IMG/VR virus record: IMGVR_UViG_3300046491_000021
Span: 1-20,348 of that record
DNA from: a virus
DNA: 20,348 nt
Strand: one strand, 5' to 3'
The notes beneath the pieces were generated by a model, which was given only the letters and a program-made list of their open reading frames with translations, was not told the origin of the DNA and ran no database searches. Below, one piece after another: positions 5,583 through 18,719 of this stretch (the stretch's first letter is position 1; each line of letters opens with the position of its first letter). The position numbers and the translations under genes were made by a program.

Positions 5583-5591
5583 TGTGCAAGT
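5583..5591 (+). repeat. TGTGCAAGT site, exact, in the ribosome binding site-start spacer
   Basis: It fills the seven bases between AAGGAG and the GTG at 5590 and includes the first two bases of the start codon. Confidence 0.7.
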
Positions 5592-5967
5592 GGGAGCGTC
5601 CCTCTACCCGCCCCCGGTCGTGAGCGCGACCGTCACCACGACCGGACTGACGCCGGGCGCGGGGGTCATCGTGAACAACTTCCAGGGCCGGAAGATCAAC
5701 GGCGTCTGCTCGTTCGCCTTCGACCTGGCCGTCACGACCAAGTTCAACGCGGGCACCACGGCCCCGTACAACCTCGCCGACACCGTCATCGCGACTCTGC
5801 CTTCCGGCTACTGGCCGGCCCGCACGGTCACGGCCCTCTACTCGACGGGCTTCGCGGACGGCGAGTGCGACGTCACGGCGGACGGCAACGTCACCATCCG
5901 AACCACGAACACCTACAGCATCGAAGTCGGCGAAACGATCCGCTGCTCCGGCGCTTTCGTCCTGTAA
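5590..5967 (+). CDS. Small beta-rich tail-region protein
   Basis: This encodes 125 residues, mostly beta-strand, Thr/Val/Ala-rich, with a C-terminal pattern (D-V-T-A-D-G-N-V-T-I) seen in phage tail accessory or head-binding domains. The start is GTG at 5590, chosen because AAGGAG (5577-5582) lies seven bases upstream; the frame is open further upstream but reads through the previous gene as a shadow. The whole spacer between the ribosome binding site and the start is the repeat TGTGCAA, running into the GTG. Adjacent tail genes suggest a minor virion component. No specific family recognised. Confidence 0.7.
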   Translation: MGASLYPPPVVSATVTTTGLTPGAGVIVNNFQGRKINGVCSFAFDLAVTTKFNAGTTAPYNLADTVIATLPSGYWPARTVTALYSTGFADGECDVTADGNVTIRTTNTYSIEVGETIRCSGAFVL

Positions 5968-5986
5968 CCCAAGGAGGGCCCAGCAA

Positions 5987-7261
5987 GTGGCGATCACGTC
6001 CTACCCCTTCGACAGCCAGACTGTCACCGAGACCGACTACTCCCGACTCTTCCGAGAGTTCCAGTCCACTGGCGTTGCCGATGGCGTGGGCGGCGGCTCG
6101 CTCTACACGTACGCGGACGGCACGGGCATGACCGTGAAGGTCGCCTCCGGCTTTGCGATCGTGCGCGGTCACGCCATCTACTCGACGGCGACCGAGGTGC
6201 TGACGATCGCGGCGTCCGGCACGTCTTCCCGCGTGGACCGTGTGGTCCTCAAGCTCGACCCGGCGACGAACAGCATCACGCTGGCGGTCAAGCAGGGGAC
6301 GGCCGGCTCGTCGACTCCGCCCGCCCTGACCCAGACCGACACGGGCGTCTACGAGCTCTCGTTGGCTCGGGTCACGGTCGGGGCCAACGTCACCTCGATC
6401 TCCGCGGCCTCCGTCCAGGGCGAGCGGAAGTTCGTCGGCAACACGGTCGGCGGCTGGACCACCGACACCCGCCCGGACACTCCCCGGATCGGCCGGCTCG
6501 GCTTCAACCAGTCGACGAGCTCGTGGGAGTTCTGGAACGGCACGGCCTGGTCCGACATGGCGCCGTCCGTGTCCTGGTCCGCGCTGACCGGCAAGCCGAC
6601 CACGTTCACCCCGGCCAGCCACACGCACCTGTGGGCCGACCTGACCGACAAGCCGACGACGTTCGCGCCGACCTCGCACACGCATGACTGGTCGCAGATC
6701 ACGGGCGAGCCGGCGACCTTCCCGCCGTCCACCCACTCCCACACGTGGTCCTCGATCACCTCGAAGCCGACCACGTTCACCCCGGCCTCGCACTCCCACT
6801 CCAGCTACCTGGAGTCCGGCGACACGATCTCCTGGGCCAACGGCTCGAAGAAGCCGCACGCCAACTCGGTGTCCGGGTCGGGCACGTACTACGCGGTGTG
6901 GGTCGAGGGCGATGGAACCTTCGCCCGCAACACCTCCTCGATCAAGTTCAAGGAGAACGTCCGCGACTACGTCATCGACCCCGACGACGTGCTGAAGCTC
7001 CGCCCGGTCATCTACGACCGCAAGGACCAGCTCGAAGACGACGGCACCGTGCGCGAGGGCCGCAAGGACGAGGTCGGCCTCATCGCGGAGGAGACCGAGA
7101 AGGCCGGCCTGGGCTGGCTCATCAACTACCTGGACGGCGAAGTGGACGGGCTGCGCTACGACCTGCTCGGCGTCGCCCTGGTCCCCCTGGCCCAGCGCCA
7201 GGCCCGGCAGATCAGCGACCTCGAAGCCCGCCTCGCCGAGCTGGAGGCCAAGCTCTCGTGA
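5987..7261 (+). CDS. Tail fibre with HTH-type repeats and C-terminal intramolecular chaperone (S74-like)
   Basis: The 424-residue protein starts at GTG after AAGGAGG (5971-5977). Residues 1-150 form a beta-rich attachment domain of the type found in phage appendages. Residues 197-272 contain four tandem 19-residue repeats, for example W-S-A-L-T-G-K-P-T-T-F, each ending in His-(Thr/Ser)-His; such repeats build metal-binding triple-stranded fibres. The final 110 residues resemble the peptidase S74 intramolecular chaperone: a N-T-S-S-I-K-F-K-E-N-V segment carries the expected Ser and Lys, followed by G-L-I-A-E-E and a closing coiled coil (L-E-A-R-L-A-E-L-E-A-K-L). In this family the chaperone helps the trimer fold and then cuts itself off. 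It probably acts as the host-recognition fibre. Confidence 0.85.
   Translation: MAITSYPFDSQTVTETDYSRLFREFQSTGVADGVGGGSLYTYADGTGMTVKVASGFAIVRGHAIYSTATEVLTIAASGTSSRVDRVVLKLDPATNSITLAVKQGTAGSSTPPALTQTDTGVYELSLARVTVGANVTSISAASVQGERKFVGNTVGGWTTDTRPDTPRIGRLGFNQSTSSWEFWNGTAWSDMAPSVSWSALTGKPTTFTPASHTHLWADLTDKPTTFAPTSHTHDWSQITGEPATFPPSTHSHTWSSITSKPTTFTPASHSHSSYLESGDTISWANGSKKPHANSVSGSGTYYAVWVEGDGTFARNTSSIKFKENVRDYVIDPDDVLKLRPVIYDRKDQLEDDGTVREGRKDEVGLIAEETEKAGLGWLINYLDGEVDGLRYDLLGVALVPLAQRQARQISDLEARLAELEAKLS
6575..6802 (+). repeat. Four tandem 57-bp coding repeats in the tail fibre
   Basis: Four units of 57 bases (6575-6631, 6632-6688, 6689-6745, 6746-6802) each encode 19 residues beginning with Trp and ending in a His-x-His pair plus one residue. 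Units 1 and 4 are closest at the DNA level (shared block CCGACCACGTTCACCCCGGC). The exact periodicity suggests growth by unit duplication, and copy number may differ between related phages. Confidence 0.85.
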
Positions 7262-7611
7262 GCGTGCTGGCTTCGGACTCAAGTGTGCAAGTTGCGCTGG
7301 TGTCCGCGGGAGGCACTCTCGGCGTCGCCCTGGTGGGCGTTGTCGTCGAGCTCCTGCGGCGCCAGGCCGGCGCCATAAACGAGGTGCGCGAGCACACGCA
7401 GGAAGCGCGCGACCAGGTCGCCAACACCCACTCGACGAACCTGCGCGACGACTTGGACGCGGTGGCCCACCGCATCGACCGGGTGCTCGCGCTCCAGGAG
7501 CGGCACAGCGAGGACATCGCTGCCCTGCGCTCCGACATCTCCCACGAACGCCGCGAGCGCCTCGCCGTGGCGGAACGACTCGACGACCACATGGCCGCGA
7601 ACGCGGCCTGA
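7258..7611 (+). CDS. Membrane-anchored coiled-coil protein (DUF2746-like, lysis region)
   Basis: A 117-residue protein starting at the GTG that overlaps the fibre gene's stop by four bases. Residues 12-34 form one membrane segment (V-A-L-V-S-A-G-G-T-L-G-V-A-L-V-G-V-V-V-E-L) followed by an Arg pair; the rest is a charged coiled coil. This layout, next to the endolysin, matches DUF2746 proteins of actinophages, sometimes annotated as holins or lysis accessory proteins. A second in-frame GTG at 7285 lies inside a copy of the TGTGCAAGT repeat, but it has no ribosome binding site, so the upstream start is preferred. A function in lysis is inferred from location. Confidence 0.72.
   Translation: MSVLASDSSVQVALVSAGGTLGVALVGVVVELLRRQAGAINEVREHTQEARDQVANTHSTNLRDDLDAVAHRIDRVLALQERHSEDIAALRSDISHERRERLAVAERLDDHMAANAA
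7284..7292 (+). repeat. TGTGCAAGT site, exact, early in the DUF2746-like gene
   Basis: AGTGTGCAAGTTG lies nine codons into the gene and includes an in-frame GTG. It differs from the copy at 13991 only in the first base of the 13-base block. Confidence 0.65.
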
Positions 7612-7622
7612 CAACAGGAGGT

Positions 7623-7631
7623 TGTGCAAGT
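7623..7631 (+). repeat. TGTGCAAGT site, exact, in the endolysin ribosome binding site-start spacer
   Basis: It follows AGGAGG by one base and runs into the GTG at 7630, in the same register as at 5583. Confidence 0.7.
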
Positions 7632-8493
7632 GACACAGGTAGCAAAGGTTCTCTCGGTCGCGAAGGCCGAAGTCGGTACCCACGAGAAGAAGTCGGGTGG
7701 CCACTGGGTCAACGACTCGAAGTACAACCGCTGGTTCGGCAAGATCCCCGGCTACGACCAGGACGGCTACGGCTGGCCCTGGTGCGCCGCGTACGTGGCG
7801 TGGGTGGCGGCCGAGGCGGGCGTCCCCGCGCTGTACCCCAAGACGGCCGGCTGCCAGACCGCGGTCGCCTGGTACAAGCGCCAGGGCCGCTTCAGCGAGT
7901 TCCCCGGCATCGGGGCGCAGGTGTTCTTCGGCAGTGGTGGCGGCGCCCACACGGGCATCGTCTATGACTACGACGACACCTACATCTACACGTACGAGGG
8001 CAACACGAACGTGAACGGGAGCGCCGAGGGCGACGGCGTCTACGCGCGGAAGCGGGTGCGCCGGGACGCCTACGTGTACGGCTACGGCTACCCGAAGTTC
8101 GCGGAGGGCATCAAGTCGGCCGACCCGAAGTTCAAGGACGAGGCGCCCAAGGCGGAGTCCAAGCCTGCTCCGTCCAAGCCCGCTCCGTCCAAGCCGGCCC
8201 CGAGCAAGCCTGCTCCCGCGAAGCCCGCGCCCTCGAAGATCGTGGCCCTGAACGCTGCGGTGAAGCCCGGCGCCAAGCACGCCCAGGTCAAGGATCTCCA
8301 GCACTTCCTGGTCAAGGCGGGCTACGGCCCGATCCCCGGCGCCTACACCACCTACTACGGCGTCGAGACCCAGAAGGCGGTCGCCCGGTTCCACAACAAG
8401 AACCCGCACCTGAAGACCGCGGGTGTCTCGTACGACCCGGTCATCGGCAAGTCCGGCTTCAAGGAGCTCCAGAAGGAGGCAGGCATCAAGTGA
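7630..8493 (+). CDS. Endolysin: CHAP amidase/peptidase plus peptidoglycan-binding domain
   Basis: A 287-residue endolysin that would cut host peptidoglycan at the end of infection. The N-terminal CHAP domain (about residues 1-155) shows the catalytic Cys52 in W-P-W-C-A-A-Y-V-A-W, His107 in G-G-A-H-T-G-I-V, and E-G-N near 123-125 for the third polar residue. A flexible linker of five K-P-A-P-S type units (about 178-202) joins it to a C-terminal peptidoglycan-binding domain (about 205-287; V-K-D-L-Q-H-F-L-V-K-A-G-Y). The start is GTG 7630, eight bases after AGGAGG (7616-7621). A GTG at 7624 in the same frame is too close to that site. The spacer contains TGTGCAA of the phage repeat. No signal peptide is present, so export would need a holin. 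Confidence 0.92.
   Translation: MTQVAKVLSVAKAEVGTHEKKSGGHWVNDSKYNRWFGKIPGYDQDGYGWPWCAAYVAWVAAEAGVPALYPKTAGCQTAVAWYKRQGRFSEFPGIGAQVFFGSGGGAHTGIVYDYDDTYIYTYEGNTNVNGSAEGDGVYARKRVRRDAYVYGYGYPKFAEGIKSADPKFKDEAPKAESKPAPSKPAPSKPAPSKPAPAKPAPSKIVALNAAVKPGAKHAQVKDLQHFLVKAGYGPIPGAYTTYYGVETQKAVARFHNKNPHLKTAGVSYDPVIGKSGFKELQKEAGIK
8161..8235 (+). repeat. Five 15-bp coding repeats (endolysin linker)
   Basis: Five consecutive 15-base units encode Lys-Pro-Ala-Pro-(Ser/Ala). They form the proline-rich hinge between the catalytic and wall-binding domains. Confidence 0.85.
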
Positions 8494-8702
8494 GCAAGCA
8501 CGCGAAGGTGACGAGCAAGGGCCTGGCGCGTATCGCGTCGGCCCTGCCCACCAGGTACAAGTCCAAGGCCGGGCTGGTTGCGGCCGGCCTCGGTGTGACC
8601 CTGTCCCTGGCTACCTACTTCGGCACCGACTACCCGCAGTTCTCGCTCGTCATCCAGGCGCTGACCGCGTTCGGGTTCGTCGAGCAGACTGACTCGGAAT
8701 GA
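8490..8702 (+). CDS. Small holin-like membrane protein
   Basis: The 70-residue product overlaps the endolysin stop by four bases (GTGA). A basic N-terminus (K-H-A-K-V-T-S-K) is followed by a likely membrane helix at residues 27-45 (K-A-G-L-V-A-A-G-L-G-V-T-L-S-L-A) and a second hydrophobic segment at about 52-65, then an acidic tail. Size, topology and place directly after the endolysin fit a holin that would let the endolysin out of the cell. The sequence alone does not prove it; the DUF2746-like gene on the other side of the endolysin is an alternative holin. The gene is followed by a strong terminator. Confidence 0.7.
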   Translation: MSKHAKVTSKGLARIASALPTRYKSKAGLVAAGLGVTLSLATYFGTDYPQFSLVIQALTAFGFVEQTDSE

Positions 8703-8705
8703 GAG

Positions 8706-8745
8706 AAGCCCCCGCTGGCCTGACGGCTGGCGGGGGCTTTCTTGT
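8706..8745 (+). terminator. Rho-independent terminator ending the lysis operon
   Basis: A 15-bp stem (8706-8720 with 8725-8739, two G-T pairs) with loop TGAC is followed by TTTCTT. It lies between the convergent holin-like gene and the minus-strand Lsr2-like gene. The T-rich side faces the plus-strand operon; in the opposite direction the tail is weaker, but the stem could still help end the minus transcript. Confidence 0.9.
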
Positions 8746-8749
8746 CGTC

Positions 8750-9076
8750 TCAGTTCTTCTTGGCTGCCTCGATCTCCTCCAGGCTGACCACCTTCGGTCG
8801 CCGCCGGGAGGTCGTCTTCTTGGCTGTGGCCGGCGCCGGGGCCGGAGCCTTCTTGGCCGGAGCCTTCTTGGCCGGCGCGGGCTCGGCCTTGGTCTCAGGT
8901 TCACACACCGGCTCGGGCGGCTCGACGACCTCCGCCTCCTCCAGCCACTCCTCGAAGGGCTCGGCGTGCTCCTCGCACAGATCCTTCGAGACGGTGCGAC
9001 CATCGCTCGCTGTGATGGTGTAAGTCTTCGCGGGGAACTTCTTGTCGATGTCGCACGCCGTGACTTGCAGCTTCAT
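8750..9076 (-). CDS. Lsr2-like nucleoid protein with lysine/alanine-rich tail
   Basis: This is the only minus-strand gene in the window. The 108-residue product has an N-terminal small beta domain: C-D-I-D at residues 8-11, a Y-T-I-T-A-S-D-G segment, and D-L-C-E-E-H-A near 32-38. That pattern recalls the N-terminal dimerisation domain of variant Lsr2 proteins in actinobacteria and their phages. An acidic linker follows, then an A-K-K-A-P repeat (about 71-83) and a basic S-R-R-R-P segment, resembling histone H1-like tails. The ATG at 9076 is preceded on its strand by GGAGGGAAGT; an upstream in-frame ATG at 9112 lacks such a site. It likely binds DNA and could silence or organise host or phage DNA. 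Family assignment is from pattern, not search. Confidence 0.72.
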   Translation of the reverse strand: MKLQVTACDIDKKFPAKTYTITASDGRTVSKDLCEEHAEPFEEWLEEAEVVEPPEPVCEPETKAEPAPAKKAPAKKAPAPAPATAKKTTSRRRPKVVSLEEIEAAKKN

Positions 9077-9088
9077 ACTTCCCTCCGG

Positions 9089-9097
9089 TGTGCATGT
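9089..9097 (+). repeat. TGTGYAAGT-family site, one mismatch
   Basis: GGTGTGCATGTTGG differs by one base from the GGTGTGCAAGTTG copy at 13991. It lies in the divergent gap, just upstream of the Lsr2-like gene's ribosome binding site. Confidence 0.5.
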
Positions 9098-9132
9098 TGG
9101 TGTGACGTCCACGATACCCGTGCGCTGTTGAC

Positions 9133-9141
9133 TGTGTAGGT
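9133..9141 (+). repeat. TGTGYAAGT-family site, one mismatch
   Basis: CTGTGTAGGTGTA differs by one base from CTGTGTAAGTGTA at 12573. It overlaps the end of the TTGACT box of the divergent region. Confidence 0.5.
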
Positions 9142-9193
9142 GTACCGTGGAAGTGTTACATGCTCAAGATCAAGTTTCACAGCGAGGAGGCAC

Positions 9194-9649
9194 ATGGGAG
9201 CGCGCAAGATCCAAGACGAGCAGGAGGTCATCCGCTGGTTCGAGGAGGGTCGCACCTACGCGTGGATGATCGAGGAGTACAAGCGGAAGTACAACATCGA
9301 CACAGTCCCCTCCATGTGGGGGAACTTCCGTCGTCGCCGCGGCCTCGATCGGCGGATCGTCCGGGATGACGAGCTCATCCCCTGGTTCGTGAAAGAGGAG
9401 CACCGCTGGGCTTACCCGCTCGCGATGCTTCGCGCGGAGGCACGGCGCCGCGCCGGCAAGGAGCTGACGGAGACAGACGCCGGCCGGCTGGCGAACTGGC
9501 TGGAGATGCTCAAGGAGGAGAAGGCGGTCGTGCACTACGACCCCGACACCGAAGAGGGCTTCTTCTACGTGCCTCGTCAGGAGGGTGATGACGACCTCAT
9601 CCACAACCCAGCACAAAAGACGACACCCCGCCCCAACGCCGACAAGTAG
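9194..9649 (+). CDS. Helix-turn-helix DNA-binding protein, candidate phage regulator
   Basis: The 151-residue product starts at ATG after GAGGAGG. Residues 8-50 look like a helix-turn-helix: a first helix around E-V-I-R-W-F, a second around T-Y-A-W-M-I-E-E-Y-K-R-K-Y, a turn N-I-D-T, and a basic recognition helix ending F-R-R-R-R-G-L. A second conserved-looking block (W-A-Y-P-L-A-M-L-R-A-E-A-R-R-R-A, about 77-92) is helical. The C-terminal part ends in a V-H-Y-D-P-D-T-E segment and a charged tail. Standing alone between two regulatory gaps, divergent from the Lsr2-like gene, it occupies the position expected of an immunity repressor or early switch protein. That role is inferred; the protein could equally regulate something else. 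Confidence 0.65.
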   Translation: MGARKIQDEQEVIRWFEEGRTYAWMIEEYKRKYNIDTVPSMWGNFRRRRGLDRRIVRDDELIPWFVKEEHRWAYPLAMLRAEARRRAGKELTETDAGRLANWLEMLKEEKAVVHYDPDTEEGFFYVPRQEGDDDLIHNPAQKTTPRPNADK

Positions 9650-9668
9650 ACGCCGGCACCCAGCTCGT

Positions 9669-9703
9669 GAGAGCCCCTCGCATCCGAACTGCGAGGGGCT
9701 CTC
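9669..9703 (+). terminator. Perfect 14-bp hairpin after the HTH gene
   Basis: GAGAGCCCCTCGCA (9669-9682) pairs perfectly with 9690-9703 around a 7-base loop. It lies 19 bases after the HTH gene's stop, so it probably ends that transcript, although no T-run follows. It would also act on transcripts from the other direction. Confidence 0.65.
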
Positions 9704-9746
9704 CGCTGTCCAGCTTAGGCTCGCCTGTCCCGATCTGGGCGGACTC

Positions 9747-9768
9747 CTTTGAATCTTCAAAGAATCTT
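9747..9768. promoter_or_regulatory. Operator-like inverted and direct repeats
   Basis: CTTTGA-ATCT-TCAAAG (9747-9762) is a perfect inverted repeat. GAATCTT occurs at 9751-9757 and again at 9762-9768, eleven bases apart, about one helical turn. The surrounding stretch is poorer in G/C than the neighbouring genes. It lies about 70 bases upstream of the candidate promoter at 9838. Confidence 0.4.
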
Positions 9769-9837
9769 GGAAAACCGTACAACCTTCTGCCTCCTTACGG
9801 AGTCGTAGGTTCCGAAAGTGAGAGAATGGTGAACTAC

Positions 9838-9867
9838 TTGACAGTTCATCTATCTCTCGTGCACTAT
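9838..9867 (+). promoter_or_regulatory. Putative sigma-70-type promoter for the early/replication block
   Basis: A perfect -35 hexamer TTGACA (9838-9843) is followed after 18 bases by CACTAT (9862-9867), which keeps the key A and final T of a -10 box; TATGGA at 9865 is an alternative with longer spacing. The repeat copy at 9884-9892 (opposite orientation) would fall just after the transcription start. It would drive the gene at 9907 and the exonuclease. Confidence 0.5.
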
Positions 9868-9883
9868 GGATCATCTAAGCGAC

Positions 9884-9892
9884 ACTTGCACA
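9884..9892 (-). repeat. TGTGCAAGT site, exact, reverse orientation
   Basis: An exact nine-base core on the minus strand, within CTGTGCAAGTGTC. It lies between the candidate promoter and the ribosome binding site of the gene at 9907. Confidence 0.65.
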
Positions 9893-9906
9893 GAAGGAGG
9901 ATTCGA

Positions 9907-10653
9907 GTGGCAGTCTTCGAGGGGGCGGATACTTCATCTTCAGCGCGCGGAGGATGGTGCGCTGAGTACAAGTCCCCGGACGCCCTCATCACCCTCGTGG
10001 TGGACGAAGAGGAGTACGACTTCCACATCGACGCGAGGCCGGGCTACAAGGCCAGCGCGATGACGGAGGTTCTGAAAACGGCCGAGAGTCGGGGCCTGGA
10101 GCTCCTCGACGAAGACGAGTGCGAGCCCGAGATCCTGGAAGACGGCACCGTCCGCATCTACCTCGCTCCCGTTACCGAGTACGCAGTCGCGCAGACCGCC
10201 GTCCCCGTGAGGCCGGTCCGCTCGATGGTCAGGCGCACGGCCGGCACATTCGCCCTCGCAGCCTGCGTCGCCTCCGCCCTCCTGCTCCCCAGCCCGGTGG
10301 GCACGAGCTACCCGGACGCCATCAGCGAAGTGTTCGACAGCATCAGCATCAACGACCCCGGCGCAGTTGAGCCGGCACCTGAACCCACGCCCCCGAACGA
10401 AGGAGTACTGAGTGGCCTTGAATCTCCTGGAGATCCCGCAGCAGTCCCGGCCCGCACATCCGAATCACTCCGTCCCAAGGGACGGGTGGAGCAGGCCGCT
10501 TATCGTTCCCGAGACCGGCGGCAAGCCGAAGGGACACACCCGCACCACCACGTTCATCGACTGCATCGAGGACAAGTCGAGCCTGATCGACTGGCAAGGC
10601 CGGATGGTCCTGCTCGGGTCATCCAAGCGGCCCGACTTGCTGGAAGCCGCTAG
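9907..10653 (+). CDS. Single-pass membrane protein; 3' end overlaps the exonuclease gene
   Basis: The GTG at 9907 follows GGAGG (9896-9900). The product as read is 248 residues: a soluble N-terminal domain (about 1-95) with an acidic V-V-D-E-E-E-Y-D-F segment, a basic stretch R-P-V-R-S-M-V-R-R, one membrane helix (about 109-127, F-A-L-A-A-C-V-A-S-A-L-L-L), then an acidic, Pro-rich region ending near residue 168. From there the frame runs another 80 codons through the start of the exonuclease gene. That stretch is Arg/His-rich with A/T-rich third positions and looks like an out-of-frame shadow. Both other frames have stops just there (10409-10411 and 10419-10421), so the original end may have been near 10411. 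Function unknown. Confidence 0.6.
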   Translation: MAVFEGADTSSSARGGWCAEYKSPDALITLVVDEEEYDFHIDARPGYKASAMTEVLKTAESRGLELLDEDECEPEILEDGTVRIYLAPVTEYAVAQTAVPVRPVRSMVRRTAGTFALAACVASALLLPSPVGTSYPDAISEVFDSISINDPGAVEPAPEPTPPNEGVLSGLESPGDPAAVPARTSESLRPKGRVEQAAYRSRDRRQAEGTHPHHHVHRLHRGQVEPDRLARPDGPARVIQAARLAGSR

Positions 10654-11356
10654 GGCTCTCGACCCTGACGACCCTGCCGACAAGAAGAAGCTCAACGCCC
10701 TGACAGAGCAGGCCAAGGACGCGGCCGGCGCGAACGAGAAGTCGCGCAAGGGCACCTACCTGCACGACCTGTCGGAGTACGTGGACCGCGGTGACCCGCT
10801 GCCCAGCACCATCTCGGGCGCGGACCTCGACGACATGGCCGCGTACATGATGGCTACGTCCGTCCTGAAGGTCATCGCGATCGAGCAGTTCGTCGCAGTA
10901 CCTGAGCTGTCCGTGGGTGGCACGTTCGACCGGCTGTCGTACTACGACGGACCCGGCCCGGACGGGAAGCCGATCTCGGGCAACTTCATCACGGACACCA
11001 AGACCGGAACGATCGAGTACGGCAAGCTCAAGATGGCATCGCAACTCGCGGTGTACTCGCGGGGCAAGCTGTACGACCACACCAGGTTCCCGGTAGACGC
11101 TTCGGACAAGAAGGCGTTTACCACCTGGAAGAAGACAGAGTTCACTGCCGAGGAGGCCGCCTCGGCGTACTCGCCGTTGCCTCCTGTGAACCAGGACTGG
11201 GGCATCATCGTCCACTTGCCAGCGGGCACCGGAGTGTGTAACTTGTACTGGGTCGACCTGAACATCGGGTGGGCACTTGCGAACCTTGCACTCACGATCC
11301 GCAAGGCGCGCTCGACGAAGGGCGCCATGAAGCCCTTCGTGACGCAGACCACATGA
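10412..11356 (+). CDS. Cas4/RecB-like PD-(D/E)XK exonuclease
   Basis: The 314-residue protein starts at GTG seven bases after GAAGGAG. The nuclease core is visible: His118 in G-T-Y-L-H-D-L, Asp173 in G-G-T-F-D-R-L, Asp195-x-Lys197 in I-T-D-T-K-T-G, and the RecB-type Gln211 in S-Q-L-A-V-Y-S. These are the catalytic and DNA-positioning residues of Cas4/RecB family nucleases, which degrade DNA ends for recombination or to recycle host DNA. I see no four-cysteine iron-sulphur cluster, so it is closer to phage RecB-like exonucleases. Its first residues (M-A-L-N-L-L-E-I-P) resemble those of the product at 12130. It stands near the start of the replication block and overlaps the preceding frame by 242 bases. 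Confidence 0.82.
   Translation: MALNLLEIPQQSRPAHPNHSVPRDGWSRPLIVPETGGKPKGHTRTTTFIDCIEDKSSLIDWQGRMVLLGSSKRPDLLEAARALDPDDPADKKKLNALTEQAKDAAGANEKSRKGTYLHDLSEYVDRGDPLPSTISGADLDDMAAYMMATSVLKVIAIEQFVAVPELSVGGTFDRLSYYDGPGPDGKPISGNFITDTKTGTIEYGKLKMASQLAVYSRGKLYDHTRFPVDASDKKAFTTWKKTEFTAEEAASAYSPLPPVNQDWGIIVHLPAGTGVCNLYWVDLNIGWALANLALTIRKARSTKGAMKPFVTQTT
11235..11243 (+). repeat. TGTGYAAGT-family site, one mismatch (inside exonuclease gene)
   Basis: GGAGTGTGTAACTTGT differs at one base from AGTGTGTAAGTTG at 11381. It is coding sequence and may be chance. Confidence 0.35.
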
Positions 11357-11359
11357 AGC

Positions 11360-11377
11360 GGAGTTGCTTTCAACTCC
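11360..11377 (+). other. Perfect 7-bp hairpin upstream of a repeat site
   Basis: GGAGTTG pairs with CAACTCC around loop CTTT, four bases after the exonuclease stop. No T-run follows. The repeat copy TGTGTAAGT begins six bases further on. Confidence 0.5.
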
Positions 11378-11382
11378 CAGAG

Positions 11383-11391
11383 TGTGTAAGT
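11383..11391 (+). repeat. TGTGTAAGT site, T variant
   Basis: AGTGTGTAAGTTGG in the 108-base gap between the exonuclease gene and the gene at 11465, in the direction of transcription. Confidence 0.65.
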
Positions 11392-11412
11392 TGGACAACG
11401 AAGAAAGCGAAG

Positions 11413-11435
11413 GTTGCACACCGAGGGTGGGCAAC
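11413..11435 (+). other. Hairpin containing a reversed, partial repeat site
   Basis: GTTGC-A-CACC pairs with GGTG-G-GCAAC (one A-G mismatch) around loop GAG. Its left arm, read on the minus strand, begins GGTGTGCAA like the repeat family, so the gap holds two facing half-matches. Confidence 0.45.
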
Positions 11436-11464
11436 GACAGCGAGAGAGAGGGGAACGGCAACCA

Positions 11465-11944
11465 GTGAGCGAACTGAGCGTCACGATCAAGTACGACAAG
11501 GGGCACGACGCCACCTGGGCGGTCTTCCGCGGGACGACCGGGGAGATCAGGGCGGACATCCTGGACTTCTTCGGGATGGACCCGGCCACGCAGGTGGGCC
11601 TGAGCCTGTCCAGCGTGGTGACGAACGCGACGCAGATCGCACACGGCAAGGGCCTGATCGCGACCGCCCTCGGGGCCACGGTCGTCGAGGAGACGACCGA
11701 GCCGGCCAAGCCCACTGACGACCCGTGGGCGGCGGCTTCGGCTGCGCAGTCTTCCGGCCCTTGGCCGGGAAGTGCAAGTGTGACTGAGCCGAAGAAGGAA
11801 GACCCCAACGCCTACATCCTCGGCGAGATCGAGAAGCAGACCACGGTCGACGGCTTGAAGAAGCTGTGGGCCGGCAACCAGTCCTTCTTCTCCGACGCTG
11901 CCGTCATGGCGGCCTGGAAGGCCAAGGGCAAGTCGCTCCAGTGA
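11465..11944 (+). CDS. Unknown phage protein, two-part, next to exonuclease
   Basis: A 159-residue protein from GTG 11465; upstream purine-rich sequence (GAGGGG) gives only a modest ribosome binding site. Residues 1-75 look like a compact beta/alpha domain (V-T-I-K-Y-D-K-G-H-D-A-T-W, then D-I-L-D-F-F-G). A Pro/Ala/Ser-rich linker (about 78-112) leads to a helical C-terminal segment (I-L-G-E-I-E-K-Q-T-T-V-D-G-L-K-K-L-W) of about 45 residues. The layout of a folded domain, flexible linker and short helical end suggests a DNA- or protein-binding accessory factor for the recombination and replication genes around it. I do not recognise the family. An AGTGCAAGT near-copy of the repeat lies in the linker coding part (11771-11779). 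Confidence 0.7.
   Translation: MSELSVTIKYDKGHDATWAVFRGTTGEIRADILDFFGMDPATQVGLSLSSVVTNATQIAHGKGLIATALGATVVEETTEPAKPTDDPWAAASAAQSSGPWPGSASVTEPKKEDPNAYILGEIEKQTTVDGLKKLWAGNQSFFSDAAVMAAWKAKGKSLQ
11771..11779 (+). repeat. TGTGYAAGT-family site, one mismatch (coding)
   Basis: AGTGCAAGT in the linker-coding part of the gene at 11465. With a changed first base and a coding position it may be chance. Confidence 0.3.
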
Positions 11945-12567: not shown

Positions 12568-12573
12568 CCTAAC

Positions 12574-12582
12574 TGTGTAAGT
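12574..12582 (+). repeat. TGTGTAAGT site, T variant
   Basis: CTGTGTAAGTGTAG begins six bases after the stop of the gene at 12130 and lies upstream of the deaminase gene, in the direction of transcription. Confidence 0.65.
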
Positions 12583-12611
12583 GTAGCTGCGAGAAGAGGG
12601 GAGGGGGATGA

Positions 12612-12627: not shown

Positions 12628-12642
12628 AGGAGGGAGGGTCGA

Positions 12643-13937: not shown

Positions 13938-13948
13938 TGTGATACTGT
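13920..13948 (+). promoter_or_regulatory. Putative extended -10 promoter before the resolvase gene
   Basis: TTGTCC (13920-13925) and TACTGT (13943-13948) are separated by 17 bases, and TGA directly precedes the -10 box, as in extended -10 promoters. It begins within the last codons of the ATPase gene. A hairpin and a repeat site follow before the next start. Confidence 0.45.
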
Positions 13949-13960
13949 CGCAAGACACAG

Positions 13961-13976
13961 CCGGGCACCCGCCCGG
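13961..13976 (+). other. Perfect 6-bp G/C hairpin in the leader of the resolvase gene
   Basis: CCGGGC pairs with GCCCGG around loop ACCC. Only two T bases follow, so it is at best a weak terminator; it might act in the leader of a transcript from 13920. Confidence 0.45.
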
Positions 13977-13992
13977 TTCAACTGGGAGGTGG

Positions 13993-14001
13993 TGTGCAAG
14001 T
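13993..14001 (+). repeat. TGTGCAAGT site, exact, between ribosome binding site and TTG start
   Basis: GGTGTGCAAGTTG lies just after GGGAGG and runs into the TTG at 14001. Confidence 0.7.
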
Positions 14002-14378
14002 TGAGCAACAGCATCGCGGCACGGAACAAGCGCAACAAGAGGGTCGGCGCGCAGTGGGAGACGGACCTGCGCGAGGGCCTGCGCGGTGAGGGCTTCGACG
14101 TCGAGTCCCTGCGCCTGGCCGGCAAGGAGGACGAGGGCGACATGGTCGTCCGCGAGGGCGACGGCAAGTACCTGGTGATCGAGGCGAAGAACGCGAAGTT
14201 CGAGCCCGGTGTCTTCCTCGGTGAGGCCATCGTCGAGCGCGAGAACTTCGCCAAGCACCGCGGCCTGGACCTCGACGACGTCGAGTCCATCGTGGTCGTC
14301 AAGCGCCGGGGCAAGAACTGGCGCCACGCGTTCGTGCTCACGACTGTCGAGGACTACCTCGGGCTGGACCCGCAGTGA
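14001..14378 (+). CDS. PD-(D/E)XK nuclease, Holliday junction resolvase-like
   Basis: About 125 residues with a basic N-terminus (A-A-R-N-K-R-N-K-R-V-G). The nuclease core is plain: Asp47 in D-E-G-D-M-V-V, then Glu61-Ala-Lys63 in Y-L-V-I-E-A-K-N-A-K, the D...ExK arrangement of archaeal-type resolvases and related endonucleases. It would cut branched DNA arising in replication or recombination, or help process concatemers before packaging. The start is uncertain: TTG 14001 (GGAGG eleven bases upstream) gives M-S-N-S-I; GTG 13992 or 13989 would add a few residues but is too close to the ribosome binding site. The end overlaps the next start by four bases. Confidence 0.8.
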   Translation: MSNSIAARNKRNKRVGAQWETDLREGLRGEGFDVESLRLAGKEDEGDMVVREGDGKYLVIEAKNAKFEPGVFLGEAIVERENFAKHRGLDLDDVESIVVVKRRGKNWRHAFVLTTVEDYLGLDPQ

Positions 14379-14527
14379 TCGGGTTCATGGGCTGGGACAT
14401 GACGCAGGCCGAGCTCGATGCGCTGCACGACGAGACGGAAGCGTTCTTCGCCTACATCGAAGACCCCGACTCCGACCTGGCCCTGATCCTCGCCGTCGAG
14501 GAGGCCCTGGAGGTGACGCACCCATGA
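14375..14527 (+). CDS. Small acidic protein (50 residues)
   Basis: A short gene starting at the GTG that overlaps the resolvase stop and ending in an ATGA overlap with the primase zinc-domain gene. The product is strongly acidic and helical (T-Q-A-E-L-D-A-L-H-D-E-T-E-A-F-F, then L-I-L-A-V-E-E-A-L-E), without motifs. The double stop/start overlaps and G/C-rich third positions support it as real. Function unknown; it might be a small partner of a neighbouring replication protein. Confidence 0.6.
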   Translation: MIGFMGWDMTQAELDALHDETEAFFAYIEDPDSDLALILAVEEALEVTHP

Positions 14528-14955
14528 GGTTCCACCGCATCGACGCTGACCAGGGCGGCGGTTCGGACAGCAAGCCCCTGCTCGACTCGGTCATGCACCA
14601 CTTCGACGTGGACTTCAACGACCAGCGCAACGCGGGCATGGCCAAGTGCCCCCTGCACGACGACAACACCCCCTCGTTCAGCTACCGGCTCGACGAGGGG
14701 CTGTGGAACTGCCACTCCTGCGCGAATGGCGGGGACAGCTTCACCCTGATCGAGAAGTACCACGACATGCAGCTCGGCAAGGCGATCGACTTCAAGCAGG
14801 CCAAGGCGTACGCCAAGGAGCACGGCCTGGAGGAGGGCGCGGTCGCCAAGGAGACGGGCTACACCAGCCGCTACGGAGGCGGCCGGAAGGCAGCGGGCAA
14901 GAAGCCCGGACAGAAGCCAGGCGGCGGCTACGTGCCGGCCTGGAAGCGCAAGTAA
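14524..14955 (+). CDS. DNA primase, zinc-binding domain on its own gene
   Basis: The 143-residue product has a CHC2-type zinc-binding domain: Cys42-x2-His45 in K-C-P-L-H-D-D, then T-P-S-F, and Cys63-x2-Cys66 in W-N-C-H-S-C-A-N-G-G. In DnaG and T7-type primases this domain reads the template and selects the primer start. A helical segment follows, then a basic, Gly-rich tail (G-R-K-A-A-G-K-K-P-G-Q-K-P-G-G-G) likely to bind nucleic acid. The ATG has GGAGGTGA upstream. The catalytic TOPRIM domain is absent here but is found in the next gene, so the two products probably work as one primase. Confidence 0.85.
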   Translation: MRFHRIDADQGGGSDSKPLLDSVMHHFDVDFNDQRNAGMAKCPLHDDNTPSFSYRLDEGLWNCHSCANGGDSFTLIEKYHDMQLGKAIDFKQAKAYAKEHGLEEGAVAKETGYTSRYGGGRKAAGKKPGQKPGGGYVPAWKRK

Positions 14956-14969
14956 GGAGGAGAACCAGC

Positions 14970-15632
14970 TTGGCCGAGCACGAACCGCTCACGCCGCTCT
15001 CGACGTCCCAGAAGGAGATGCTGGAGGAGGCAGTCGCCACCTACCAGGCCCACCTCAACGCCGAGACGGCTGCCTACCTGATCAAGCGAGGCATCGGGCG
15101 GGACGAGGCCCTGGCCTTCCGGCTCGGGATCGTCGCCGACCCGGCGCCCGGACACGAGAAGTACCGAGGGATGCTCGCCATCCCCTACCTCGGTCGAGAC
15201 GGCCAGCCGCTCACCGTCCGCTTCCGGTGCCTGTCCGAGCACAACCACCGTGACTACTTCCACGGCAAGTACAACACCATCAAAGACGACATCCCCCGCA
15301 TGTTCCATGTGGGCGCCGTCCACCGAGCAGGCGAAGAGATCCACGTCACCGAGGGCGAGCTCGACGCCATCATCCTCAACAAGCTCGGCCTGCACGCAGT
15401 CGCCATCCCCGGCGCCAACATGTGGTTCGGCCGGCACCGAAGGATGCTCGCCGGCTTCAACCGCGTGTGGACCTGGGCCGATCCGGACGACGCGGGCGCC
15501 GAGCTCACCGGCAAGATCACCCGTCAGCTTCGCACCGCCAAGGCCGTGCGCCTGAAGGCCGACGTGACCGACACCTACATGGCACACGGGGCCGAGCACG
15601 TGCTCTCCCTGGTGCAGAAGAAGGAGGACTGA
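14970..15632 (+). CDS. DNA primase catalytic subunit (TOPRIM domain)
   Basis: A 220-residue protein with a TTG start after AAGGAGG. Residues 30-110 match the N-terminal part of a primase core (Y-L-I-K-R-G-I, R-G-M-L-A-I-P-Y, V-R-F-R). The TOPRIM metal-binding residues are visible: Glu128 in V-T-E-G-E-L-D-A and Asp171-Pro-Asp173 in A-D-P-D-D-A-G. This type of core, as in T7 gp4 and related phage primases, makes the RNA primers at the fork. There is no zinc domain and no helicase domain; these are supplied by the genes at 14524 and 13053. A short coupling helix ends the protein. Confidence 0.86.
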   Translation: MAEHEPLTPLSTSQKEMLEEAVATYQAHLNAETAAYLIKRGIGRDEALAFRLGIVADPAPGHEKYRGMLAIPYLGRDGQPLTVRFRCLSEHNHRDYFHGKYNTIKDDIPRMFHVGAVHRAGEEIHVTEGELDAIILNKLGLHAVAIPGANMWFGRHRRMLAGFNRVWTWADPDDAGAELTGKITRQLRTAKAVRLKADVTDTYMAHGAEHVLSLVQKKED

Positions 15633-15634
15633 CA

Positions 15635-15961
15635 GTGGCAGACACCGCGACGCAGGCACCGAAGAAGACCAGCCGCAAGCCCGACCCGATGACGCGCGCC
15701 ATCACCGACATGAAAGCCGCAGCCAAGCACCTGGGCGACTTCCAGGTGAAGCCGGTCCCCGAGGACCGCGCCGCGCTGCACGACCGCCGTTCGGCCGCGT
15801 GGGGCCGCGAGTACGCCGACTCCGGCACGTTCGACGCCCTGGTCCTCTCCCTCGCCTTCGAGGCCCTGGCCGGCCTCAACCCCACCGAGCGCCGCTACTC
15901 CCTCCTTCAGCTCTCCGCCGTGGCCCTGGACGAGGTCGTCAAGCTGGACGGCGCCGAGTGA
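15635..15961 (+). CDS. Unknown phage protein after primase
   Basis: The 108-residue product starts at GTG after AAGGAGG within the end of the primase gene. The N-terminus is basic and disordered-looking (A-P-K-K-T-S-R-K-P-D-P). The rest is helical, with a long hydrophobic helical region (F-D-A-L-V-L-S-L-A-F-E-A-L-A-G-L) at about residues 66-85 that is amphipathic rather than membrane-spanning. No family recognised. Its place in the replication operon and tight spacing suggest co-expression with the primase. Confidence 0.7.
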   Translation: MADTATQAPKKTSRKPDPMTRAITDMKAAAKHLGDFQVKPVPEDRAALHDRRSAAWGREYADSGTFDALVLSLAFEALAGLNPTERRYSLLQLSAVALDEVVKLDGAE

Positions 15962-16167
15962 GGCCCGAGGACGAGTCCCCCGAGGAGTGGGAGGAGGTCG
16001 AGGTCGTGAGCGTCCAGGCGGTCGTCGACCACTTCGCCAACACGAAGCGGGCAGCGTCCATCGTGGGCGACCTGCGTGCCGCCCTGCGCGGCGAGGGCTT
16101 CACCAAGGAGGAGACCTTCGAGCTGGTCCAGATGTACTGGGCCTCGGAGCTCGGGGCGTTCGACTGA
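15958..16167 (+). CDS. Small unknown protein (69 or 53 residues)
   Basis: The frame begins at a GTG overlapping the previous stop by four bases. A second in-frame GTG at 16006 has a much better ribosome binding site (GAGGAGG, eight bases away) and would give 53 residues starting M-S-V-Q-A-V-V-D. The codons between the two starts all end in G or C, which favours the longer form, so both are plausible. The product is mainly helical, with an acidic start and a conserved-looking F-T-K-E-E-T-F-E-L segment. Function unknown. It shares the overlap TGATG with the next gene. Confidence 0.6.
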   Translation: MRPEDESPEEWEEVEVVSVQAVVDHFANTKRAASIVGDLRAALRGEGFTKEETFELVQMYWASELGAFD

Positions 16168-16388
16168 TGCACCTCCCCGGTACGCCCGGCCCGACCCTGA
16201 TCGACATCTACTCCGCCCTGACCCTGGAGGAGCGGGACGCGCTGGTCCCCCACCTGATCGGCGACACCTCGGCCGACTGGCTGGCGTCCATCCTCCGCAT
16301 CCACGGACACGACGTGTCCGCTACCACCATCCGCACGTACCGCCGATCTCTTCGGCAGGAAGGAGGCTCCAGTGAGCGAGCTGCTTGA
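16167..16388 (+). CDS. Small helix-turn-helix-like protein
   Basis: A 73-residue protein starting at ATG overlapping the previous stop. Residues 22-62 show a likely three-helix unit (L-T-L-E-E-R-D-A-L-V, W-L-A-S-I-L-R-I-H, T-T-I-R-T-Y-R-R-S-L), with the last helix basic and Thr-rich like a recognition helix. It may be a small DNA-binding regulator or an adaptor. Its end overlaps the next gene by 17 bases, and the ribosome binding site of that gene (GGAAGGAGG) lies within its codons. Confidence 0.6.
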   Translation: MHLPGTPGPTLIDIYSALTLEERDALVPHLIGDTSADWLASILRIHGHDVSATTIRTYRRSLRQEGGSSERAA

Positions 16389-17571
16389 CGGACTCCTCGC
16401 CAAGCCGGTCGGCCCCGCGGTCCCCGCCCGGACCACCGACCCCGACAAGGACTTCACCCGCCAGATCGAGGTCAAGGGCGACGCTGCGGACGTGACCGTC
16501 CGGGCCGAGACCTTCGAGCAGACCGAGTCGGCCGCGACCGACGTGCTGCGCGGCCAGGGCCTGGACCCTGCCGAGTGGACCGTGACCGGCTTCCGCTCCT
16601 CGGAGTGGACCATGGCCAACGGTGACACGGGCGTGTCCACCCGCTTCTCTTTCGCCCGGTGTGCAAGTGTCACCGAGGGTGGAGGGCTTCCGCTCGACGA
16701 CCTCCTCGCCGCGATCGACTCCACCCCGCCCGACCCGGTCACCATGTTCGTCCGGGACGGCGAGGAGTACACCTTCATCGTCGCCCTCGGCGACATGCAG
16801 TTCGGCAAGATCGACGGCGACGGAGTCGAGGGCACGCTCGCGCGGACCATCGCCTGCCTCGACAAGGCGGCCGACCTCCTCGCCGAGTACCGGCTCCGCT
16901 TCAACATCCGCCACGTCCACATCCCCTGGCTCGGCGACCACATCGAAGGCTTCGTCTCGCAGGGCGGCGCCAACACCTGGCGGACCCCGCTCACCCTCAA
17001 CGAGCAGATCCGCCTCACCCGGCGCGTGATGCTCCATGCGCTCCTGCTCTTCGCGCCGATGTGCAGTCGCCTGACCATGGCCGCGGTGCCGGGCAACCAC
17101 GGTGAAGCCGTCCGCTTCATGGGCAAGGGCGTCACCCGCTACGACGACAGCCACGACACCGAGTCCCTGATCGCCGTCAAGGACGCCGCCGACCTCAACC
17201 CCGAGCGCTTCGGTCACGTCGAGTTCTTCGTCCCCGACACGGACGAGCTGAGCGTCGTCGTCGAGTGCTCGGGCACCGTCGTCGCCCACGTCCACGGCCA
17301 CCAGTTCAGGCCCGGCAAGCACTTCGAGTGGTGGAAGGGCCAGGCATTCGGCCGCAAGTCGGCCATGCACCAGGCGGACGTGCTCCTCGCCGGCCACCTG
17401 CACCACGAGTTCATCGAAGCGGACGGCCCGCGCACCTTCATCCAGGTGCCGTCGATGGAGTCGGAGTCCACGTGGTTCCGGCACAGCAAGGGCGCCGAAG
17501 GCGCCCCCGGACTGATCGTCGCAGTGACCAGCAAGGGCCGAGTGCCCGTGAAGGAGGTAGTAACAGCGTGA
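16372..17571 (+). CDS. Calcineurin-type metallophosphoesterase
   Basis: The 399-residue product carries the metal-binding motifs of calcineurin-like phosphoesterases in order: Asp141 in G-D-M-Q-F-G, Asp189-His190 in G-D-H-I-E, Asn242-His243 in P-G-N-H-G-E, His308-x-His310 in H-V-H-G-H, and His342-x-His344 in G-H-L-H-H. Members include the SbcD/Mre11 nucleases and many phage DNA phosphoesterases. Its neighbours suggest action on nucleic acid in replication or recombination, but a nucleotide substrate is possible. About 125 residues precede the catalytic domain; they are beta-rich, begin with a disordered Pro-rich part and match no family I recognise. The start is GTG after AAGGAGG. A TGTGCAAGT repeat lies in its coding sequence. 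Confidence 0.85.
   Translation: MSELLDGLLAKPVGPAVPARTTDPDKDFTRQIEVKGDAADVTVRAETFEQTESAATDVLRGQGLDPAEWTVTGFRSSEWTMANGDTGVSTRFSFARCASVTEGGGLPLDDLLAAIDSTPPDPVTMFVRDGEEYTFIVALGDMQFGKIDGDGVEGTLARTIACLDKAADLLAEYRLRFNIRHVHIPWLGDHIEGFVSQGGANTWRTPLTLNEQIRLTRRVMLHALLLFAPMCSRLTMAAVPGNHGEAVRFMGKGVTRYDDSHDTESLIAVKDAADLNPERFGHVEFFVPDTDELSVVVECSGTVVAHVHGHQFRPGKHFEWWKGQAFGRKSAMHQADVLLAGHLHHEFIEADGPRTFIQVPSMESESTWFRHSKGAEGAPGLIVAVTSKGRVPVKEVVTA
16660..16668 (+). repeat. TGTGCAAGT site, exact, inside a coding region
   Basis: CGGTGTGCAAGTGTCACC lies within the metallophosphoesterase gene, where it encodes Arg-Cys-Ala-Ser-Val-Thr. This exact core is in the sense direction. Confidence 0.55.
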
Positions 17572-17936
17572 GTATCCAGATCACTGACCTGGAGGTGACC
17601 GAGTACGAGACGGCCGAACAGGCGCGCACGGACTGGTCGTTCATGCAGGACGACGAGACCTTGAAGGTCGCCGGGCGGGCGGCCTACCGCCTGTCGCAGG
17701 ACTACGCCGACACCGGAACGATCGAGTACGACGACGCCTACCAGGAGGCGGTCATCATCCTGGCGACGAGGCCGGGCATGGTGCGCGAGTGCCTGTCCGA
17801 CCCGAGCCTCGGGTACGGGGTGCTCTACACCCGGCTGCACCAGGCGCTCGTCAAGGTCGTGAGAACCGACGCCAAGCACCGCACGAAGCACACCTCGTAC
17901 GAGGGTGCGCTCGACGTGATCGAGGTGGGCGCCTGA
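17568..17936 (+). CDS. Possible sigma factor region 2-like half
   Basis: The 122-residue product begins at GTG overlapping the previous stop, with AAGGAGG upstream in the previous gene. Its core (about residues 32-108) is helical: A-A-Y-R-L-S-Q-D-Y, I-E-Y-D-D-A-Y-Q-E-A-V-I-I-L-A, then Y-G-V-L-Y-T-R-L-H-Q-A-L and a basic K-H-R-T-K-H. The 'D-x-x-Q-E' helix followed by aromatic/basic helices recalls sigma-70 region 2, which contacts RNA polymerase and melts the -10 box. No region 4 is present, but the next gene supplies one. The likeness is from inspection only and may be wrong; it could be an unrelated helical protein. Confidence 0.5.
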   Translation: MSIQITDLEVTEYETAEQARTDWSFMQDDETLKVAGRAAYRLSQDYADTGTIEYDDAYQEAVIILATRPGMVRECLSDPSLGYGVLYTRLHQALVKVVRTDAKHRTKHTSYEGALDVIEVGA

Positions 17937-18325
17937 TGGCCGGCTACAGCCGAGCGGTCGTCGAGAAGATACTGCCCGCCGTCTGGGACCAGGACGCGGC
18001 GTACGGCATGAAGAACGAGACCAGGCCCGACCCGGACATGCCGAAGGGGCACGTCGACAAGAAGAAGGGCTCCGACTTCCTGGTCCATCTCGCCGACGTC
18101 CGACTGGCCGTCGAGAAGGGGCCTCTCTCCTTCGACGAGAAGCAGGCCCTGTTCATGCGCTACTACCTGGACGACCTCCAGGACTACATCGCCAAGCACC
18201 AGGGCGTGACGCAGCAGGCGGTCTCGTACCGGATCGAGCGGGGCGTGGGCAAGCTCGCCGCCCACCTGAACGGCGAGAAGTACATCGACGGCTACGACCA
18301 GTTGGAGGACGACCCGAGTGAGTGA
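17936..18325 (+). CDS. Sigma region 4-like helix-turn-helix protein
   Basis: A 129-residue protein starting at ATG overlapping the preceding stop. Residues 62-112 resemble sigma-70 region 4: L-S-F-D-E-K-Q-A-L-F-M-R-Y-Y then D-Y-I-A-K-H, a turn with G-V-T-Q-Q-A-V-S-Y-R-I and a basic end G-V-G-K-L-A. In sigma factors this domain reads the -35 box and binds the polymerase beta flap. The first 55 residues are charged and Lys/Asp-rich without a region 2. With the neighbour upstream it could form a two-part sigma factor, as SigO and RsoA do in Bacillus subtilis. A plain HTH transcription factor is the main alternative. Confidence 0.6.
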   Translation: MAGYSRAVVEKILPAVWDQDAAYGMKNETRPDPDMPKGHVDKKKGSDFLVHLADVRLAVEKGPLSFDEKQALFMRYYLDDLQDYIAKHQGVTQQAVSYRIERGVGKLAAHLNGEKYIDGYDQLEDDPSE

Positions 18326-18701
18326 GACCGCGCCGGAACCGATCGAGGGTGTCGAGCCCCCGGCAGGGATGACCGAGTTCCACATGGAGTTCTGGGACGA
18401 CCTGACCCTGACCTACTACTGGCGCAACGGGCCCGTCTACTCCCGCCCGTACAACGAGGACGAGCTGGCCAGCCGCGACAAGCGGATGGCGCTCGACGGG
18501 CTGCGGGCCCAGGCCGAGGAGGCGATCACCTACCTCGACCACCGCATCGACCTGAGCCTGACCTACCTCGTCAAGCCGGCGCCCACCGCGGAGGAGCTGG
18601 CGACGCAGGTCAAGGTGCTGTCCGACCTGGCCGCGTACAGCGCGGGCACGCTCAAGCGCCTGATCGTGGTGCTCGGTGAGCTGACCGGACGTCCGCTGTA
18701 G
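18318..18701 (+). CDS. Unknown helical protein
   Basis: The 127-residue product starts at a GTG overlapping the preceding gene by eight bases. An acidic Pro-rich start (A-P-E-P-I-E-G-V-E-P-P) leads to aromatic strands (L-T-L-T-Y-Y-W-R-N-G) and then two or three long amphipathic helices from about residue 57 to the end. No catalytic or metal-binding motif is seen. It is the last gene before a regulatory gap, so it probably ends the transcript of the putative sigma pair. Family not recognised. Confidence 0.65.
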   Translation: MSETAPEPIEGVEPPAGMTEFHMEFWDDLTLTYYWRNGPVYSRPYNEDELASRDKRMALDGLRAQAEEAITYLDHRIDLSLTYLVKPAPTAEELATQVKVLSDLAAYSAGTLKRLIVVLGELTGRPL

Positions 18702-18710
18702 CGGACCAGG

Positions 18711-18719
18711 TGTGCAAGT
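18711..18719 (+). repeat. TGTGCAAGT site, exact, in the leader of the reductase gene
   Basis: The surrounding TGTGCAAGTGACGCAGG matches the endolysin start region at 7623 (TGTGCAAGTGACACAGG) in all but one base. Confidence 0.7.

Follow-up and report, generated by a model that had tools for sequence, protein, structure and literature searches.

The nine-base repeat TGTG(C/T)AAGT is dispersed along a 20,348-base stretch of DNA (hereafter the window) that makes up the whole of virus record IMGVR_UViG_3300046491_000021 and represents part of an R4-like phage of Streptomyces (Arquatrovirinae). With a probability of roughly 0.9, judged from sequence comparison, structure prediction and analogy, its copies are the sites bound by the immunity repressor that the phage itself encodes at 9194-9649, in a repressor-stoperator system of the kind found in phage R4 and in cluster A mycobacteriophages. 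In the most likely interpretation, a dormant Streptomyces phage would silence its own genes through these one-way sites.

The window is 95.4% identical to Streptomyces phage Caelum over 98% of the window length and 82-86% identical to phages Spernnie, Omar and Amethyst, all of them Arquatrovirinae. Its gene table was obtained by mapping 30 Caelum genes, from the minor tail protein gene to the ribonucleotide reductase gene, and by adding a list of open reading frames (ORFs); on this table, gaps between genes occupy 4.3% of the window. Nine exact copies of the repeat were found just where the initial annotation had read them by eye, on the plus strand at 5583, 7284, 7623, 11383, 12574, 13993, 16660 and 18711 and on the minus strand at 9884. 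Only 0.06 copies would be expected by chance and none of 100 dinucleotide shuffles gave nine, in agreement with the earlier estimate of less than one. Seven copies are centred in gaps and two lie within genes (7284 and 16660), eight of the nine point with transcription, and three sites contain the start codon mapped for the following gene (GTG at 5590, GTG at 7630 and TTG at 14001). The preference for gaps and gene starts, as well as the single copy facing against transcription, had thus been described correctly.

The full motif is longer than the nine-base core and consists of two parts, TGTGYAAGTKKNRC, as deduced from an alignment of 121 exact sites from the first seven genomes. Of the bases added, a C at position 13 (the first T being 0) varies least; it occurs in 94% of these sites and in eight of the nine exact copies in the window, the copy at 5583 having a G instead. 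An extension to about 13 bases had been proposed previously and it holds mainly on the right-hand side, while the added 5' A/G is weak. Sites were de-duplicated and scored in bits with matrices trained on other genomes, at a threshold of about 0.5 false positives per sequence; the exceptions are the GreenWeasel matrix, trained on itself, and the Lika training set, which included Lika. This gave 16 sites in the window (11 in gaps), a total that includes two marginal matches not listed in Table 1 (1869, 8.9 bits; 10014, 10.2 bits). Among the one-mismatch copies suggested earlier, those at 11235 (17.4 bits) and 9133 (13.6 bits) were recovered, that at 9089 was rejected since it fails the matrix and lacks the distal C, and a further site at 11771 (14.7 bits) had been overlooked.

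The repeat recurs across the close relatives, whose records covered mostly the first 50,000 bases (as did the matrix counts of both Caelum and R4). There are 17 exact copies in Caelum, 22 in Spernnie, 16 in Omar, 13 in Amethyst, 22 in phiScoe1, 17 in R4 and 14 in Paedore, but few in six relatives that belong to other groups: 1 in Lika, 1 in Caliburn, 6 in Joe, 3 in Amela, 4 in Saftant and 3 in GreenWeasel. Matrix sites amount to 25 in Caelum, 25 in R4 and 26 in Omar for 16 in the window fragment, numbers in keeping with the roughly 20-30 asymmetric sites per genome of an R4-like or cluster A system. They are concentrated in gaps (17 of 25 sites in Caelum, where gaps make up 8.3%; 12 of 25 in R4, 6.6%; 18 of 26 in Omar, 10.1%) and, between genes of like direction, they follow transcription in 11 of 14 cases in the window, 20 of 21 in Caelum, 21 of 23 in R4 and 18 of 22 in Omar. 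In the same way, copies in the right arm of the close relatives, where genes run leftward, are mostly on the minus strand. Places are also kept: 20 of 25 mappable R4 sites and 19 of 23 in Omar lie within 30 bases of the place of a Caelum site, and 2000 gap-matched random draws never gave as many. The corresponding 13 of 15 for the window are less telling, since the window is 95% identical to Caelum. Both lines of evidence on which the initial annotation had made its proposal depend, enrichment of the repeat and its conservation at matching gaps in relatives, were therefore observed.

A candidate for the binding protein is encoded in the window. Within an ORF at 9140-9649, translation from the ATG at 9194 gives a product of 151 residues; the ORF product matches 172 phage records, all of Streptomyces phages. 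The R4 repressor, whose annotation reads 'similar to L5 gp71', is 84.4% identical to the window protein, with 91% of the query aligned. The window protein also matches PHROG 3929 ('transcriptional repressor') at 9e-89, and a Pfam search with it returned nothing above the cut-off. The best match of solved structure is the cluster A immunity repressor 7R6R/7TZ1, with an E value of 5.3e-5 for the single sequence and of 6.1e-9 for the profile. An AlphaFold2 model built from 35 homologues (mean predicted local distance difference test score, pLDDT, 83.7; predicted template modelling score, pTM, 0.66) comprises three N-terminal helices and, after them, a second part that is made up of two further helices with two strands. 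With this model, 7R6R was the sole Foldseek match below an E value of 0.001 (E 3.9e-5, probability 1.00, template modelling score 0.51-0.55), and VIA-align superposed 137 residues at a Z score of 10.5, a root-mean-square deviation of 4.6 A and 22% identity, the next chain reaching a Z score of 6.3. The protein can be divided into an N-terminal helix-turn-helix (HTH) domain at about residues 5-50 and a C-terminal Stoperator-type domain at about residues 51-140. R98, invariant in 35 of 35 homologues, aligns with R108, a DNA-contacting residue that is essential in the repressor of TipsytheTRex (PMC9283540); this pairing uses a 20-residue offset of the chain numbering, adopted because it brings K75, D78, K79, K81, D104 and R108 into register with the letters of the chain. 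Judged by homology and predicted fold, the gene at 9194-9649 is the immunity repressor gene of this phage, a homologue of those of L5 and TipsytheTRex with an HTH and a Stoperator domain, which supports the earlier suggestion that the sites belong to a phage repressor, possibly this very product.

The gap that follows the repressor gene holds the only exact copy of the window that is reversed, and the site at this place is an exception in orientation in each of the window, Caelum, R4 and Omar. In all eight phages of the YAAGT type that were compared (the window, Caelum, Spernnie, Omar, Amethyst, R4, Paedore and phiScoe1), this gap contains TTGACA and CANNAT, separated by 17-18 bases, followed by a reversed site that begins 40-42 bases after the start of TTGACA, a pattern that was read from the sequences first and counted after it had been noticed. 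GreenWeasel has TTGACA and two reversed sites with its own core in the same gap. Positions 9838-9867 of the window are accordingly listed as a candidate promoter, since a standard consensus promoter scan of this segment reports nothing, and by its location before the replication genes it would be the early lytic one; a regular-expression search for a -35/-10 pair there also found no match.

These observations suggest how repression could work. A repressor monomer would bind the asymmetric 14-base-pair site with two domains, the HTH presumably on TGTG and, by analogy, the Stoperator domain on the core and the distal C. By the same analogy with cluster A (PMC9283540), both initiation and elongation may be blocked: at 9879-9892 the repressor would sit just past the candidate early promoter and prevent initiation of the replication operon, and at the forward sites it could stop RNA polymerase engaged in leaky transcription of the dormant prophage. 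In cluster A, inversion of a site abolishes repression of elongation (PMC9283540). A single repressor could thus silence the whole genome and render the lysogen immune to related phages, and the site at 9133-9146 might possibly serve autoregulation of the repressor gene.

Could another phage or host protein bind the sites instead, as an activator or at middle or late promoter elements? Candidates are the divergent gene for a small DNA-binding protein at 8750-9076 and the sigma-factor-like gene at 17936-18325, the Caelum counterparts of which are both annotated as DNA-binding proteins; the product of the latter matches a PHROG sigma-factor family as well, and the sites often stand before genes or over gene starts. 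This is nevertheless improbable. The repressor is homologous to a known binder of such one-way sites, the site behind the repressor gene is located downstream of TTGACA and beyond the -10-like element, which is not the usual place for an activator, and the type of core mostly follows the repressor groups, a covariation that was examined for the repressor. A role in RNA, where sites at gene starts would signal translation or anti-termination, is less probable still. The strand bias with transcription and the three overlaps with start codons in the window would fit such a role, but the eight YAAGT-type phages, as well as Lika and GreenWeasel, carry the site behind the repressor gene in reverse orientation, so that the transcript would carry its complement there; moreover, several sites lie within genes and the window encodes a DNA-binding repressor of the appropriate family. 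A replication, packaging or recombination motif unrelated to transcription (origin iterons or a Chi-like sequence), although such motifs are generally known to be dispersed and strand-biased, is the least probable of all, since strand mostly tracks gene direction in both arms, the sites gather in gaps and the core differs at kept positions in Lika and GreenWeasel.

Several findings weigh against the sites being stoperators of the encoded repressor. Four lie within genes (7284, 11235, 11771 and 16660), R4 has only 12 of its 25 sites centred in gaps, and the strand bias of the window taken alone is modest (11 with and 3 against transcription, p 0.029). The standard scan returned zero promoters for 9838-9867, and Lika has a reversed site with its own core but without TTGACA. 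In the repressor, the residue equivalent to D104, which positions R108 in TipsytheTRex, is T94, though D95 adjoins it; D104 is important in one repressor and is not a known hallmark of the family. The pairing of core and repressor is not one to one either, as two IMG/VR contigs (L064 and L065) keep YAAGT with a repressor that is 72% identical, and Joe holds 6 copies of TGTGCAAGT alongside 12 of TGTGACAGT. The sites of Joe did not coincide significantly with those of Caelum (5 of 16, with 153 of 2000 controls as high). Finally, the minor cores TGTGATACTG and TGTGCAACCT coexist with the main core and are unexplained.

A repressor-stoperator system has been stated for R4, with citation of Smith et al. 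2013, and at least 8 R4 stoperator sites occur in intergenic regions of twelve R4-like phages (PMC10276819). Groups of Streptomyces phages were also reported to harbour immunity systems like those of cluster A (PMC6550527). The main text of the article on phage Joe, in the part available (PMC5311408), does not contain the words stoperator, repressor or immunity, and a literature search for TGTGCAAGT gave unrelated titles among the matches listed. The system of the window shares with R4, known here through the description in PMC10276819, the subfamily, the nine-base core (R4 has 10 copies of TGTGCAAGT and 7 of TGTGTAAGT in its first 50,000 bases), the location of the reversed site behind TTGACA and the 84.4% identical repressor, and only the set of sites is the phage's own. 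It is a further case of the repressor-stoperator system already described for R4 and its relatives, and it is not new in kind because the R4-like system is already in print (PMC10276819).

The likeness to cluster A phages is one of layout, as the initial annotation had put it. L5 and Bxb1 carry 24 and 34 asymmetric 13-base-pair sites, respectively, mainly in gaps and one-way (PMC3029335, PMC6550527), and their repressors are homologous to that of the window, but the consensus is GGTGGMTGTCAAG in L5 and GTTACGWDTCAAG in Bxb1 (PMC3029335) instead of TGTGYAAGTKKNRC. The window sites differ from both in consensus and, strictly speaking, are not cluster A stoperators by sequence. L5 and Bxb1 have TCAAG in common and diverge in the 5' part of the site, whereas Arquatrovirinae retain the 5' TGTG and diverge in the remainder. 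The TipsytheTRex repressor 7R6R, a structure in complex with DNA (PMC9283540), has the same order of HTH and Stoperator domain, matches the full-length predicted fold and shares the arginine at R108/R98; it differs by its low identity (22%) and by its base-contacting residues K75, D78, K79 and K81, which align with E68, R71, W72 and Y74 here.

Joe (Camvirus), Lika (Likavirus) and GreenWeasel (Hautrevirus), members of the same subfamily, possess a homologous repressor and mostly one-way, gap-concentrated sites that begin with TGTG, but their main cores are ACAGT, YAACC/nTACC and WTAGA, respectively, and not YAAGT. The words over-represented in each genus were YAAGT in the R4-like phages, ACAGT in Joe, Amela and Saftant, WTAG in GreenWeasel, and YAACC with nTACC in the Likaviruses. 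Sites with the own core number 34 in GreenWeasel (30 in gaps, 32 of 34 with transcription), 26 in Lika (15 in gaps, 18 of 24 with transcription) and 20 in Joe (14 in gaps, 18 of 19 with transcription). When mapped through orthologous genes, 10 of 18 sites in Lika (0 of 2000 controls as high) and 12 of 29 in GreenWeasel (12 of 2000) fell within 30 bases of the place of a Caelum site, one pair of neighbouring sites in each phage being counted twice for one Caelum site. Relatives with diverged repressors mostly carry other cores, often in the same gaps in two of the three genera.

Among 14 repressors, uncorrected for kinship, identity within a core type was 91% in the HTH region and 89% in residues 51-92, as compared with 82% and 66% between core types, and this sequence divergence of the second domain along with the core is suggestive only. 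A tentative proposal, for which the odds are clearly below even, is that immune specificity in Arquatrovirinae evolves largely through the Stoperator domain: the HTH and TGTG would hardly change, and the Stoperator domain would vary in step with the core (YAAGT, YAACC, ACAGT, WTAGA), often at unchanged positions. Its odds are lowered by L064 and L065, in which this domain has diverged and YAAGT is kept, and by GreenWeasel, a single sequence whose repressor differs in the HTH too. The combination of a constant HTH half and TGTG with a changing core and second domain is possibly new. In this series some 20-35 sites per genome have changed core, partly with their place kept, which allows testing how a repressor and its scattered sites change specificity jointly and which DNA-binding domain carries the change. 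If the sites are those of the repressor, an unaided reading of the sequence has recovered a real genome-wide control system and one more uncultivated phage is placed in the repressor-stoperator group.

Some observations concern further words and cores. L064 and L065 have 9 YAAGT sites in 10-13 kilobases, a higher density than in R4-like phages. The minor core TGTGATACTG, which in R4-like genomes sits in the same frame as the main sites, occurs 6 times in Omar and 6 times in Spernnie, the distal C following in 12 of these 12 copies, and once in the window at 13938. YAACC, a main core of Likaviruses, is present in a few sites of R4-like phages, namely at 11407-11420 (minus strand) in the window, at 25417, 45220 and 48100 in Caelum and at 25906, 45837 and 48457 in R4. 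Another dispersed word, GGTTTCGCCT, is found in part or whole on either strand, with 5-8 copies per genome in Caelum, phiScoe1, Paedore, Amethyst and Spernnie.

Table 1. Predicted repressor sites and associated features of the window.
Feature	Position	Strand	Score (bits)	Context
Stoperator-type site TGTGCAAGTGGGAG	5583-5596	+	18.3	Exact core, atypical last G; overlaps mapped GTG start
Site TGTGCAAGTTGCGC	7284-7297	+	24.7	Near 5' end of gene 7258-7611; sites at matching place in Caelum, R4, Omar
Site TGTGCAAGTGACAC	7623-7636	+	23.0	Overlaps mapped GTG start of endolysin gene
Weaker site TGTGTAGGTGTACC	9133-9146	+	13.6	Upstream of repressor gene
Weak candidate CGTGGAAGTGTTAC	9146-9159	+	11.4	Upstream of repressor gene; R4 and Omar have TGTGGAAGTGTTAC in the corresponding gap
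Immunity repressor gene (homology, predicted fold)	9194-9649	+		151 residues; HTH and Stoperator-type domain
Candidate early promoter	9838-9867	+		TTGACA 9838-9843, 18-base spacer, weak -10-like CACTAT 9862-9867
Reversed candidate operator TGTGCAAGTGTCGC (read on -)	9879-9892	-	22.8	Between -10-like element and ribosome-binding site
Site TGTGTAACTTGTAC	11235-11248	+	17.4	Within exonuclease gene; counterparts in Spernnie, Caelum, R4, Omar
Site TGTGTAAGTTGGAC	11383-11396	+	24.4	Gap after exonuclease gene
Minor-core candidate TGTGCAACCTTCGC	11407-11420	-	10.2	Reversed; also in Caelum, R4; variant core in Omar
Site AGTGCAAGTGTGAC	11771-11784	+	14.7	Within gene 11465-11944; Caelum 25781, R4 26281, Omar 25888
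Site TGTGTAAGTGTAGC	12574-12587	+	24.1	Gap before deoxycytidylate deaminase gene
Minor-core candidate, starts TGTGATACTG	13938-13951	+		Below matrix threshold; just after helicase gene; matching place: Caelum 27948, R4 28354, Omar 28268
Site TGTGCAAGTTGAGC	13993-14006	+	23.0	Overlaps mapped TTG start of Holliday junction resolvase gene
Site TGTGCAAGTGTCAC	16660-16673	+	23.3	Within gene 16372-17571
Site TGTGCAAGTGACGC	18711-18724	+	24.1	Gap before ribonucleotide reductase gene

Two G+C-rich hairpins were read by eye, one at 8706-8739 between the convergent genes 8490-8702 and 8750-9076 and one at 9669-9703 just after the repressor gene; a terminator scan called neither. For the minor tail protein gene at 4253-5578, only the best piece was kept in the mapping (residues 286-580 of 580 in Caelum), and the 5' part may differ. 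Two neighbouring genes at 17568-18325, one of them sigma-factor-like, are merely 44% and 53% identical to their Caelum counterparts, compared with 80-100% in the best piece for the remaining 28 of the 30 mapped genes, which at the sequence level suggests a local exchange.

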